Shown here: positions 46,314 to 52,285 of the stretch, piece by piece
Layout of the letters: every line of letters starts with the position of its first letter
Numbering within the stretch: the first letter of the stretch is position 1
Assembly (NCBI GenBank): GCA_026418935.1
Contig: JAOAAJ010000071.1
Coordinates: 1-64,000, forward strand
DNA length: 64,000 nt
Direction: 5' to 3'
DNA from: Caloramator sp.
GTDB lineage: Bacteria > Bacillota > Clostridia > Clostridiales > Caloramatoraceae
The notes under the pieces: generated by a model
What the model was told of the DNA's origin: nothing
Seen by the model: only the letters and a program-made list of their open reading frames with translations
The model's database searches: none
Program-made: the position numbers and the translations under genes

Positions 46314-46400
46314 TTTATAATTTATTGTATAAAAGTTAGAAAATGTATTTATATTTTGAAAAAATTATGTTATAATTTAATTATACATCAGATTAAGAGG

Positions 46401-46450
46401 AACATATCCCTCCTGAGATGCATATAATGTACATAGGCCTATCAGGGGGG
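46401..46450 (+). promoter_or_regulatory. sigK upstream region: SigE-like promoter elements and SD-pairing inverted repeat
   Basis: ACATATC (-35-like), 14-nt spacing, CATATAAT (46421-46428); CCCTCCTGA (46408-46416) complementary to TCAGGGGGG (46442-46450). Confidence 0.5.
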
Positions 46451-46457
46451 TGTTTTA

Positions 46458-47144
46458 TTGATAATAGAAACCATATGCAGCTTTTTAGATGGACTATTTC
46501 TACTTGCAGGGTATATAACAAATGGTAGTTCATTTCCAAAACCCCTCACCGAAGAGGAAGAAAAAAGATTGTTTTATGAATATAAAAATGGAAACCAACA
46601 GGCAAAAGCAGAGCTTATTACAAGGAATTTAAGATTAGTAGCTCACATAATTAAGAAATTTGGACCAATAGGTAAGGATTCTGATGATTTAATTTCAATA
46701 GGTACAGTTGGATTGATTAAGGCTATTGAAAGCTTTGATTATGATAAGGGTAATAGACTTGCGACTTATGCTGCAAGATGTATTGAGAATGAAATACTAA
46801 TGTATATGCGTTCTGTAAAAAAGGTTAAAACTGAAGTGTATTTACAGGATCCTATTGGTGTAGATAAAGAAGGAAATGAAATATGTTTAATGGACGTTTT
46901 AGGTACAGAAAGTGATAAAATACTTGATGAAGTGGAAAGTAAGATTTCAATAAGAAAGCTTTACAGAATAATAGACAAAGTTTTAGAAGAAAAGGAAAAG
47001 ATAATAATAAAACTAAGATATGGTCTTTGTGGTGAACCTAAAACACAAATGGAAATTGCACAGATGTTAGGTATATCAAGAAGTTATGTTTCAAGGATAG
47101 AAAAAAGAGCCTTAAAGAAATTAGCTAAGGAAATGCAAAGATAG
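46458..47144 (+). CDS. sigK: Sporulation sigma factor SigK, with hydrophobic pro-sequence
   Basis: LRLVAHIIKKFG..GKDSDDLISIGTVGLIKAIESF, RLATYAARCIENEILM, GISRSYVSRIEKRAL; TTG start. Confidence 0.93.
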   Translation: MIIETICSFLDGLFLLAGYITNGSSFPKPLTEEEEKRLFYEYKNGNQQAKAELITRNLRLVAHIIKKFGPIGKDSDDLISIGTVGLIKAIESFDYDKGNRLATYAARCIENEILMYMRSVKKVKTEVYLQDPIGVDKEGNEICLMDVLGTESDKILDEVESKISIRKLYRIIDKVLEEKEKIIIKLRYGLCGEPKTQMEIAQMLGISRSYVSRIEKRALKKLAKEMQR

Positions 47145-47202: not shown

Positions 47203-47304
47203 GTTTAACTGAGGACTGCATTATAATATTTAAGGATAATTTTATTTAGACATTTGAATGATATTTTGATAAAATATAGAAAAATAAGGATTAAGGTGGT
47301 AAGA

Positions 47305-47808
47305 ATGAAGAATTTATTAAAGCCAGATTATTATTTTAAAAGTGTATATGAAATAGATTTAAATTGGCTAAAGGGGCAAAATATTAAAAATATTATATTA
47401 GATATAGATAATACATTAGTTAGTTGGGGTACAAAAAAAATTGATGATAAAGGGAGAGTATTTATTGAAGCACTTAATAAGCAAGGGTTTAAAGTTTGCC
47501 TTCTATCAAATAGTTCAGCAAAACGAGTTAAAAATTTTATAAACAATGATTTTATTTTATGCTATACAGGATTTGGTATAAAGCCAATGAAAAGAAAATT
47601 TATAGGAGCACTAAAATTATTTGAAGATAAATTAGATGAAACATGTATAATAGGAGATCAAATATTTACCGACATATTAGGTGGAAATCGAGTTGGTATA
47701 AAAACTATTCTTGTTGACCCAATAGATTCAAGGGAGTTTATAACTACAAAGTTTTTTAGAAGGTTAGAAAAAAAGATAAAAAAGGATTTAATATATAGTA
47801 AATTTTAG
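47305..47808 (+). CDS. YqeG family HAD IIIA-type phosphatase
   Basis: LLKPDYYFKSVYEIDL, LDIDNTLVSWG, IGDQIFTDILGGNRVGIKTILVDPI. Confidence 0.93.
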   Translation: MKNLLKPDYYFKSVYEIDLNWLKGQNIKNIILDIDNTLVSWGTKKIDDKGRVFIEALNKQGFKVCLLSNSSAKRVKNFINNDFILCYTGFGIKPMKRKFIGALKLFEDKLDETCIIGDQIFTDILGGNRVGIKTILVDPIDSREFITTKFFRRLEKKIKKDLIYSKF

Positions 47809-47820
47809 AAGTTTAACTAT

Positions 47821-47889
47821 TAAAATTCCTGTGCATAATTTTATTAGCCTTATTGAGGAGGAGATATATTGAATAGCACAGGAATTTTA
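47821..47889 (+). repeat. Perfect 14-bp inverted repeat enclosing pilB SD and start
   Basis: TAAAATTCCTGTGC (47821-47834) and GCACAGGAATTTTA (47876-47889), 41-nt loop. Confidence 0.9.
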
Positions 47890-49542
47890 CTTAATATTGA
47901 AACTAAATTTTTAAAAGAAAAAAATAAAATAGAAAAATTAAAGGAATATAAACAAATAAACAATTGTTCTACAGAAGATGCACTTTTAGATTTAGGCTAT
48001 GTCTTAGAGGAGGAGCTATTAAATGAGGTAAACCTTATTTCAGGATTAGAGATAGTAGATTTAAAAAAAATAAGCGTTAATGAAAGAGCAATTGATTTAA
48101 TACCCTATGAAATAGTATTTGAATATTCTATTTTACCCTTTGATGAAGATGAAGATAGTATTAGAGTGGCTACATATAAGTATATTGATTTTAATTTGAT
48201 TGAAAAAATAAAACAAAGGGCAAAAAGAAATGTTAAATTATATATAAGTAAAAGAAGTGATATTAGATTTAATATAGAAAAATATTATAAAATAAAGAAA
48301 ATAAATTATTTAGCAGATAAAGTACAAGAATCTGCTATTAAATTAAATAACAATTTATATAACCAACAATTGAAAGTTAACAATTCTCCTGTTATTGATT
48401 TAATTGATGATATTTTAAATATAGCAATAAGCTCTAATGCAAGTGATATTCATATAGAACCTATGATAAATAAACTAAAAATTAGATTTAGGATAGATGG
48501 TGAACTAATTGAAATGTATAGTTTATCCTCAAGTATAATTCCCTTTGTAGTAGGTAGAATTAAAGTTTTAGCTAATATGGATATTGCTGAAAAAAGGTTA
48601 CCACAGGATGGAAGAATAGTTGTTAATGTAGATTCAAATTTAATTGATTTTAGAGTAAGTACTATACCGACAATTCATGGAGAAAAAATAGTAATTAGAG
48701 TATTAAAAAAGAATAATATAAGTTTAAATAGATATGAACTTGGTTTTAATAAAAAAGAAGAAGATATTATAAATAGACTAATTACACAAAATAGTGGGCT
48801 AATTCTAATATGTGGTCCTACAGGTAGTGGAAAAACTACAACTTTGTATTCAATATTAAATGATTTAAATAAGATAAATAAAAATATTATTACAATTGAA
48901 GACCCTGTTGAATATATGATAGAAGGAATCAATCAAATAAACATAAATCCTAAAATAGGCTTGGATTTTTCAAGCTGTTTAAAGTCTGTTTTGAGGCAAG
49001 ATCCAGATATTATAATGGTTGGTGAAATTAGAGATTTAGAGACAGCAAGAATTGCATTAAGAGCAGCAATTACCGGACATTTGGTATTAAGTACAGTCCA
49101 TACTAATGATGTACCATCTGCAATTTTAAGACTTGTAGATATGGGAGTAGAACCCTATCTAATTTCTTGTGCTGTAAAGGGCATTATTGCACAAAGGTTA
49201 GTTAGAAGGATTTGTCCATATTGTAGGATAGATTACTATGCAACAGAGTATGAAAAGAAAATATTAGAAATAAATGGTAAAGAAAATGTTTTAATAAGTA
49301 GAGGAATAGGTTGTAGAGAATGTAATGGTAGTGGATACACTGGAAGAATAGGTGTGTTTGAAATAATAGAAATTGACAAAGAGATAAGAAATACGATAAT
49401 TAAAAATCATAATATTGACATATTAAGGGATTTGTGTATTAATAAAGGTATGAAAACTTTGAAAAATTCCTGTAGAGATATGGTTATATCTAAAATAACA
49501 ACTATAGCTGAAATGGTTAAAATCATTTCAAATATTGATTAG
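47869..49542 (+). CDS. pilB: Type IV pilus assembly ATPase PilB/GspE
   Basis: SNASDIHIEP, GPTGSGKTTTLYSIL, EDPVEYMIEGINQ, tetracysteine CPYC...CREC; TTG start. Confidence 0.94.
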   Translation: MNSTGILLNIETKFLKEKNKIEKLKEYKQINNCSTEDALLDLGYVLEEELLNEVNLISGLEIVDLKKISVNERAIDLIPYEIVFEYSILPFDEDEDSIRVATYKYIDFNLIEKIKQRAKRNVKLYISKRSDIRFNIEKYYKIKKINYLADKVQESAIKLNNNLYNQQLKVNNSPVIDLIDDILNIAISSNASDIHIEPMINKLKIRFRIDGELIEMYSLSSSIIPFVVGRIKVLANMDIAEKRLPQDGRIVVNVDSNLIDFRVSTIPTIHGEKIVIRVLKKNNISLNRYELGFNKKEEDIINRLITQNSGLILICGPTGSGKTTTLYSILNDLNKINKNIITIEDPVEYMIEGINQININPKIGLDFSSCLKSVLRQDPDIIMVGEIRDLETARIALRAAITGHLVLSTVHTNDVPSAILRLVDMGVEPYLISCAVKGIIAQRLVRRICPYCRIDYYATEYEKKILEINGKENVLISRGIGCRECNGSGYTGRIGVFEIIEIDKEIRNTIIKNHNIDILRDLCINKGMKTLKNSCRDMVISKITTIAEMVKIISNID

Positions 49543-50645: not shown

Positions 50646-51833
50646 ATGCCAAAATACATAAATAGAGTAAAAACAGTAGAGGGGAAGACAATAAGTAGAT
50701 TAATACAATCTGAGGGTATTGTGGTAGCAGACACTGTTCATAAAAAGAGCAGTGTCTATAATATTTTTGATAAAAATATTATAAATATTAAATTTGAAAG
50801 AAAATTGAATAATAAAGATTTCTATTTTATATGTAAACAATTTTATATTGCTTGCCAATCTGGATTAGATATTTTAAGAATTATTGAAATATTAATAGAA
50901 CAATCAAATGGAATTTTAAAGGATATTTTCAAGGATATTTATACAAAGGTACAAACGGGTTTATCTTTATCCGAAGCCTTTGAAGATACAAAAAAATTTC
51001 CCTATTTTTTTATAAATATGATAAGGGTTGGTGAATTAAGTGGTAATTTAGAGGAGACATTTAGGATGCTATCTGATTACTACTATAAACAATATTCACT
51101 AAATAATAAGATTAAACAGGCAACTGCGTATCCAAAGTTGGTTTTTACTTTAACTTTAATAATTATTATGGTTATATTTAATAAAATAATACCAATGTTT
51201 GTGAATATATTAAATCAGTTCAATAGACAAGAAATGCCTCTATCAACTCAAGTAGTAATTGAAATTTCAAATTTTATAAGAGATAAACAGATTATACTTA
51301 TTTTTATTTTCTTATTTTTATTTTTTGTTAGTAGCATTAATAAAAAAGTTCATTCTGTTAATAAGTTTAGGGATTACTTATCTATAAAACTTCCCGTTTT
51401 AAATAAAATAAATAAATTAAATACAGCAGTTCAATTTACAGCAACTTTATCTATACTCACTAACAGTGGTTTACCAATTGTTAAGTCATTACATATATTA
51501 TCAAATATAATAGAAAATTACTTTATAAGGGAGAAGATAAAAAAGTTAGAACTAAAAATTCAAATGGGAGTTAGCTTAAGTGAGTCTTTAAAAGATGTAG
51601 AATTTTTACCTAAAATGTTAATAAATATTATTAGGACGTCTGAGGAAACAGGAACATTAGATAAAACATTAAAAAATATGTCTGAATACTACTATCTTGA
51701 GTTAGACGAGTATATTAAAAGGTTACTAGTCTTTATTGAGCCAGCATTAATATTAATAGTTGCAATATTTATTGGCTTTATAGTTATGGCATTGATGTTA
51801 CCAATATTTAAGATTTATAGGAGTATAATTTAG
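50646..51833 (+). CDS. pilC: Type IV pilus inner membrane platform protein PilC/GspF
   Basis: Two GspF repeats: GLSLSEAFEDT..FPYFFINMIRVGELSGNLEE; GVSLSESLKDVEFLPKMLINIIRTSEETGTLD. Confidence 0.92.
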   Translation: MPKYINRVKTVEGKTISRLIQSEGIVVADTVHKKSSVYNIFDKNIINIKFERKLNNKDFYFICKQFYIACQSGLDILRIIEILIEQSNGILKDIFKDIYTKVQTGLSLSEAFEDTKKFPYFFINMIRVGELSGNLEETFRMLSDYYYKQYSLNNKIKQATAYPKLVFTLTLIIIMVIFNKIIPMFVNILNQFNRQEMPLSTQVVIEISNFIRDKQIILIFIFLFLFFVSSINKKVHSVNKFRDYLSIKLPVLNKINKLNTAVQFTATLSILTNSGLPIVKSLHILSNIIENYFIREKIKKLELKIQMGVSLSESLKDVEFLPKMLINIIRTSEETGTLDKTLKNMSEYYYLELDEYIKRLLVFIEPALILIVAIFIGFIVMALMLPIFKIYRSII

Positions 51834-51850
51834 AGTTTAAACATTTAAAA

Positions 51851-51884
51851 CCTGTCAATAATTATTATTGAAATTATTGACAGG
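51851..51884 (+). repeat. Perfect 12-bp inverted repeat before major pilin gene
   Basis: CCTGTCAATAAT-tattattgaa-ATTATTGACAGG. Confidence 0.9.
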
Positions 51885-51895
51885 GAGGGATTTAT

Positions 51896-52285
51896 ATGAA
51901 AAAAAAGAAGGGTTTTACTTTAATTGAACTGATTGCAGCTATAGCTATTATTGGTATTTTGGCAGCAACTCTAATACCAGAAGTAACAAGCTATACTGTA
52001 AATGCAAAAAATACTAAGCTAAGATCAGAGGCAAGAATGCTTCTAAATGCAATTGAACTTTATAATGCATCTATTCAGGGGACGACTAATTTAATTTTAG
52101 ATGGAAACACAGAAATATCGAGTTTATCAACAATTGATGTAAACAATCCTAACGGTGTTGCTCTTAAAAATTTAATTGATAAATTGAAGGAAAAGGATAG
52201 TGAATTATTAAATTATACTATTAGTGATTTAAAAGCTCTTGTAGAAAAAGGCGAATTTAAGGTTATAAATACAAGCTCAAATTAA
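51896..52285 (+). CDS. Type IV pilin (prepilin-type N-terminal signal)
   Basis: MKKKKGFTLIELIAAIAIIGILAATLIPEV. Confidence 0.92.
   Translation: MKKKKGFTLIELIAAIAIIGILAATLIPEVTSYTVNAKNTKLRSEARMLLNAIELYNASIQGTTNLILDGNTEISSLSTIDVNNPNGVALKNLIDKLKEKDSELLNYTISDLKALVEKGEFKVINTSSN

Follow-up and report, generated by a model that had tools for sequence, protein, structure and literature searches.

A conserved hairpin across the pilB translation start of Caloramator, proposed to shield the gene from read-through transcripts

In Caloramator sp. (contig JAOAAJ010000071.1), the translation start of pilB is straddled by a perfect 14-bp inverted repeat, which is maintained with compensatory changes in related species. 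We propose that the resulting hairpin would act as an insulator against the translation of read-through mRNA, the point at which transcription begins deciding whether a transcript can be translated, an interpretation which we judge to be reasonably, though not strongly, probable. The hairpin is not unique within the window (the entire 64,000-nucleotide stretch of DNA analyzed), comparable structures being found at pilA (51896) and at the upstream sigK (46458).

The pilB start hairpin and its conservation

The two arms of the pilB repeat (Table 1) are exact complements, with 14 of 14 positions paired and 41 nt between them, and both the Shine-Dalgarno (SD) sequence and the TTG start codon (47869 to 47871) are located within this loop, while the right arm takes up codons 4 to 7 together with the two final bases of codon 3. 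The gene order of the region is udk-sigK-yqeG-pilB-pilT-pilC-pilA-pilD, followed by minor pilins. The stop codon of yqeG occupies positions 47806 to 47808, the left arm begins 12 nt further on, and a terminator scan of the region revealed no terminator-like site between yqeG and pilB. It is presumed that yqeG is the source of read-through into pilB, on an mRNA which would extend across both genes.

Table 1 Features of the start hairpins at sigK, pilB and pilA and of the pilC hairpin (coordinates are those of the window)
Feature	Coordinates	Strand	Sequence	Remarks
sigK promoter	46402-46403 and 46421-46429	+	AC-N17-CATATAATG	Sporulation (sigma-E/K) type
sigK left arm	46408..46416	+	CCCTCCTGA	In spacer of the sigE/sigK-type promoter
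sigK right arm	46442..46450	+	TCAGGGGGG	Coincides with the sigK SD; TTG at 46458
yqeG-like HAD phosphatase gene	47254..47808	+		In-frame ATG at ~47305; co-directional with pilB
pilB motif, upstream half	47811..47816	+	GTTTAA	Proposed -35; starts 3 nt past the yqeG stop
pilB left arm	47821..47834	+	TAAAATTCCTGTGC	Non-coding; kept or co-varying in relatives
pilB motif, downstream half	47834..47840	+	CATAATT	Proposed -10, CATAAT
pilB SD	47855..47863	+	GAGGAGGAG	In hairpin loop; assigned from sequence
pilB, T4P/T2S assembly ATPase	47869..49542	+		TTG start; MshEN (assigned by Pfam) and T2SSE domains
pilB right arm	47876..47889	+	GCACAGGAATTTTA	Within pilB codons 3-7
pilC hairpin	50729..50757	+	AGACACTGTTC/GAGCAGTGTCT	Third conserved hairpin; in pilC coding sequence; 7-nt loop
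pilA upstream region	51835..51863	+	CCTGTCAATAATT (left arm)	GTTTAA, 51835-51840; left arm, 51851-51863; AATAAT (proposed -10), 51857-51862
pilA right arm	51872..51884	+	AATTATTGACAGG	Runs into SD GGGAGGG (51883-51889); ATG at 51896

Ten dinucleotide-shuffled versions of the window yielded a single perfect repeat of at least 14 bp with a spacer of at most 60 nt, and none with at least five G/C pairs. For the 105-nt start region, the observed stem score was matched in 1 of 300 dinucleotide shuffles, and the predicted fold of positions 47809 to 47925 (-24.7 kcal/mol, z = -3.8) was equaled by none of 200 shuffles. A 30-kb syntenic block was aligned across five Caloramator species, and each gene start with an SD (n = 133) was scored by the best stem that the 75 nt preceding it could form with the start region; the first four places were all taken by pilB and the first 11 comprised only pilB, pilA, and sigK, with pilB scores of 26 to 37 versus a median of 14.5 over the 133 starts. 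Conserved hairpins of any kind in this block were those of pilB, pilA, and sigK, one in pilC, and others which were terminator-like or coding.

Across the five Caloramator species to which the comparison is confined, the pilB start hairpin is present in every genome (5/5), its sequence being kept in three. The stem is lengthened to 16 bp in G002, while that of G004 (Caloramator sp. mosi_1) carries two one-sided changes, each still pairing as G-U. In G001, compensatory double changes have occurred at two adjacent pairs (AATTCC/GGAATT to TATCC/GGATA), which are swapped from A-U to U-A and from U-A to A-U (left ...TATCCTGTGC, right GCACAGGATA...). Overall, 54 of 56 base pairs stand in the four alignable species. 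In G003 (the hot-spring-type metagenome-assembled genome SKW282), the PilB N terminus differs and the arm sequence of the other species is absent; its hairpin is formed by the unrelated arms TACTGGCAATA, upstream, and TATTGCCAGTA, downstream of the start, with the SD and start again in the loop. Because the left arm is non-coding, its conservation cannot be attributed to the encoded protein. The pilB repeat is not a product of chance, the conservation with compensatory change in relatives representing the decisive evidence. These results bear out a preliminary description of the locus in its coordinates and exact 14-bp complementarity, in its placement of the SD and TTG in the loop and of the right arm over codons 3 to 7, and in its view that such a match near a start is improbable by chance; the covariation of the arms that it had raised was indeed observed, and independent arm variation was not seen.

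At the sequence level, the hairpin appears to be restricted to this genus: the bipartite sequence TCCTGTGCATAAT...GCACAGGA was retrieved from 4 of 227 Clostridiales genomes, once in each and all of them Caloramator, with no sequence-level match outside the genus among the 227. No comparable start-straddling hairpin was found at pilB of other genera, nor was a conserved loop sequence found at pilB among the five species. In the assemblies of all alignable species, the segment between the pilB repeats, whose presence in both orientations would point to an invertible DNA switch, has a single orientation. The single-contig genome G004 contains many frameshifts in housekeeping genes, including pilB, sigK, and udk, which are probably assembly errors.

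Promoter-like motif and additional hairpins

The left arms of pilB and pilA overlap a shared motif, GTTTAA-N16/17-[CA]ATAATT, which is present upstream of both genes in all five species with one mismatch each at G004 pilB (GTTTGA) and G001 pilB (ATAATC), and which begins 0 to 13 nt past the stop codon of the preceding gene. A version incorporating CTG before ATAATT (GTTTAA-N-CTGNNMATAATT) matched pilB and/or pilA in each of the five genomes and one other place, compared to none in the control. Without CTG, approximately five matches per genome were obtained, a chance level, with controls being similar outside pil; the short motif alone is, therefore, not specific. From its sequence and position, the motif is regarded as a putative promoter, with pilB transcription predicted to start at approximately 47846, 3′ of the left arm. 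A start approximately 6 nt after ATAAT would generate, at each of the ten pil sites, a 5′ untranslated region (UTR) of 21 to 27 nt, the corresponding prediction for sigK being 25 nt. The overlap between the left arm and a conserved promoter-like motif, which, like the hairpins of pilA and sigK, does not figure in the preliminary description, points to the site of transcription initiation as the switch.

The GTTTAA and [CA]ATAAT elements match the sigma-A consensus poorly, the pilB site was not listed by a promoter scan of the region, and the number of promoter-like sites in the region was at the level of shuffled sequence. By-eye comparison with sigma-B, -D, -H, -G, and -K promoters yielded no full match to both pilB and pilA, sigma-B sharing only GTTTAA, and the same applied to CRP-, Rex-, FNR-, Spo0A-, and CodY-like operators. 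A third site, GTTTAA...TTGG(C/T)AATAATT, was seen in four species (G000:C122:1049-1077), within the 34 nt that separate a divergent polysaccharide-deacetylase-like gene from the gene for a 61-aa protein.

The pilA hairpin consists of 13 bp with an 8-nt loop and lies immediately 5′ of the SD, its left arm being located 17 nt downstream of the pilC stop codon. At pilA of G003, the stem has been relocated to CATCCCTCC/GGAGGGATG, where it pairs the SD itself, while GTTTAA and AATAATTAT are retained and the left arm lies wholly between the motif halves; the motif and the pairing thus represent separate constraints. In the pilC hairpin, all 55 pairs (11 pairs in five species) are standard or wobble, three having changed on both sides, and a T-rich stretch follows. 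It is possibly a weak intragenic terminator and may correspond to that reported for Clostridium perfringens pilC2 (PMC6958937). Being conserved away from any start, this structure indicates that hairpins in the pil operon need not act on initiation.

The clearest case of a left arm placed within a promoter is that of sigK (46402 to 46458), whose promoter is, by its sequence, clearly of the sporulation type. A second, conserved sigma-A-like promoter is located further upstream (46348 to 46376), and the preceding gene ends approximately 140 nt upstream. Among 10 other species of the family to which Caloramator belongs, the sigK stem is strong in six (0 to 1 of 100 shuffles as good), intermediate in two (4 to 7 of 100), and weak or absent in two; in most of the Clostridiaceae sampled, it is weak or absent. 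Although the arms differ among the family species (ACCCCCTAGTTGGC/GCCAACTGGGGGGT, CTCCCTAAAAGGT/GCTTTTTAGGGGG, and AAACATATCCAA/TTGGATATGTTT), the left arm mostly lies immediately 5′ of the -10 element CATATTATA.

Predicted accessibility and proposed mechanism

The accessibility of the ribosome landing site was expressed as the cost of opening positions -18 to +21, all energies being model predictions at 60°C. For pilB, this cost is predicted to be 10 to 17 kcal/mol in the read-through mRNA versus 1 to 3 kcal/mol in an mRNA which begins at the predicted start of its own promoter. The difference amounted to 4.9 to 15.7 kcal/mol at 14 pilB, pilA, and sigK sites, compared to a median of 1.5, a 90th percentile of 3.6, and a maximum of 7.3 kcal/mol for 119 other starts cut at -23 as a control. 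The pilB stem is predicted to remain folded at 60 to 75°C. Such predictions, coupled with the observed covariation, indicate that in a long transcript the stem is likely to occlude the ribosome landing site, and we infer that it would thereby block initiation on pilB.

According to the proposed mechanism, a transcript entering from yqeG or further upstream would carry both arms and would form a 14- to 16-bp stem (+8 to +21) within the ribosome landing site, such that no PilB would be produced. Transcription from the predicted pilB promoter, whose elements overlap and flank the left arm, would begin in the loop, and the resulting mRNA, devoid of the left arm, would present an open SD and start from which PilB could be made. 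Both pilA, downstream, and sigK, upstream, appear to be constructed alike.

Known systems and rival explanations

Insulators of this design are already known in a few cases, namely, the T4 lysozyme gene and Bacillus subtilis sigG. Long early transcripts of phage T4 gene e (and of soc, 49, and I-TevI) carry a hairpin which blocks the ribosome site, and late promoters situated within the DNA encoding the 5′ strand of the hairpin give rise to late transcripts which lack this strand and are translated (PMC3014915). The pilB arrangement resembles that of gene e in having a promoter, here a predicted one, on the 5′ arm and a start point which would decide translation; it differs in that the T4 promoters are mapped and the T4 hairpins sequester the SD and/or AUG, whereas the pilB stem is located just 3′ of the start. 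At pilA and sigK, the stem extends as far as the SD. In B. subtilis, a large hairpin at sigG (spoIIIG) is proposed to block translation of read-through mRNA from the upstream spoIIG operon (PMC5942855, Fig. 1D); transcripts which originate at the sigG promoter itself are unable to form it (PMC5942855). This, too, is a read-through hairpin in an endospore-forming member of the Firmicutes, albeit at a different gene from those considered here (pilB, pilA, and sigK) and of unrelated sequence.

The pil genes of C. perfringens offer a further comparison. Reporter fusions confirmed promoters immediately ahead of both pilB2 and pilA2 (PMC6958937), which renders dedicated promoters plausible at the Caloramator genes. 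The two pil operons are alike in possessing extra promoters before pilB and pilA (predicted in Caloramator) and a hairpin inside pilC; in C. perfringens, the gene order differs and control is described in terms of promoter strength and RNase Y processing, and a start-straddling hairpin does not feature in the parts of the reports consulted (PMC6958937, PMC7395162). Polycistronic mRNA is a further source of PilA2 (PMC7395162), a finding which counts against an insulator.

The best rival explanation, above all for pilA, is one of RNA processing and stability, whereby an RNase (Y or III) would cut the polycistronic mRNA near the stem and the stem would determine how long the pilB and pilA segments persist. 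RNase Y cleavage in the 5′ UTR of C. perfringens pilA2, beside a predicted stem-loop, yields a more stable monocistronic mRNA (PMC7395162), and the compact pilA hairpin before its SD would suit such a role. A stem whose 41-nt loop contains the SD and start and whose right arm falls in coding sequence, as at pilB, would be an odd 5′ stabilizer, and processing accounts neither for the overlap of the left arm with a promoter-like motif nor for the same layout at sigK, a separate unit. With pilB and sigK left unexplained, this alternative is considered unlikely.

Clearly improbable is a DNA operator, in which a dimeric or looping transcription factor would occupy the half-sites CCTGT...ACAGG at pilB and pilA. 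While CCTGT(G/C)...ACAGG is common to both genes, and paired arm changes would likewise preserve dyad symmetry in DNA, the half-sites are not kept in G003 (ACTGG/CCAGT at pilB and the relocated arms at pilA), their spans are unequal (55 nt at pilB versus 34 nt at pilA), and the sigK arms vary from species to species. Moreover, the two G-U pairs of G004 are asymmetric in DNA. The hairpin of unrelated sequence in G003 and the G-U pairing in G004 fit RNA better than a sequence-specific operator.

We regard as very improbable a regulated opening, in which the stem would always form at pilB and be opened by a ligand, protein, or temperature. The hairpin's location on the gene that opens the pil operon would be compatible with such control, as would the MshEN domain of PilB: in other bacteria, domains of this family are known c-di-GMP binders, which makes c-di-GMP control of the pilus plausible. 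There is, however, no Rfam match and no conserved loop, the SD is unpaired, and the perfect stem is predicted to be stable at 60 to 75°C; a scan against Rfam at E ≤ 5 for riboswitches (e.g., c-di-GMP-I/II) returned only chance matches to unrelated families. In RNA thermometers such as ROSE and FourU, the SD is paired in an imperfect stem which melts in the growth range, and this class does not fit the SD in the loop and the perfect stem predicted to stay folded. Of the preliminary reading of the repeat, its significance and its concern with translation initiation of pilB are retained, and the RNase target it proposed corresponds to the processing alternative above, while the other specific readings offered, a thermoswitch and a DNA regulator site, find no support for the reasons given above.

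Translational coupling, whereby ribosomes completing yqeG would open the stem and pilB would be made only after yqeG, appears scarcely probable at all. Although the short distances from the yqeG and pilC stop codons to the respective left arms are in its favor, a terminating ribosome would extend no further than the outermost part of the left arm, the layout is shared by sigK despite its distant preceding gene, and coupling would need no promoter-like motif on the arm. An intrinsic terminator was rejected on account of the 41-nt loop, the stem ending inside pilB, and its absence from the terminator scan list, as was a mini-open reading frame from a GTG in the left arm to TTGA, which lacks an SD and is closed early in G002.

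Occurrence beyond the pil operon

In gene-dense genomes with leaky termination, cells must avoid making protein from pass-through transcripts, and a promoter and an anti-start arm which share the same DNA would represent a cheap, ligand-free insulator. If it is confirmed here, type IV pili and sigK would be added to the known instances of this design, and RNA-seq coverage over such genes could not be equated with protein production. SigK is the mother-cell sigma factor, whose premature appearance would be harmful.

It is conceivable, though we hold it to be somewhat short of an even chance, that promoter-spacer arms complementary to the gene's own ribosome site are widespread in these spore-forming Clostridia (family-wide at sigK, at pilB and pilA in Caloramator, and at several sporulation genes), where they would silence read-through mRNA. 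Within 400 kb of G001 (G001:C32:100001-500000), nine start stems with a score of at least 24 were identified versus 1.4 expected from shuffled upstream DNA. The high-scoring starts include those of two spore genes, yyaC and a CsxC-family gene, and some other high-scoring stems are terminator-like hairpins adjoining a start. A gene encoding a 229-aa protein (153104) in the same genome carries an 18-bp perfect stem, the left arm of which lies between GTATA and CATA elements that are 18 nt apart and sigma-G-like.
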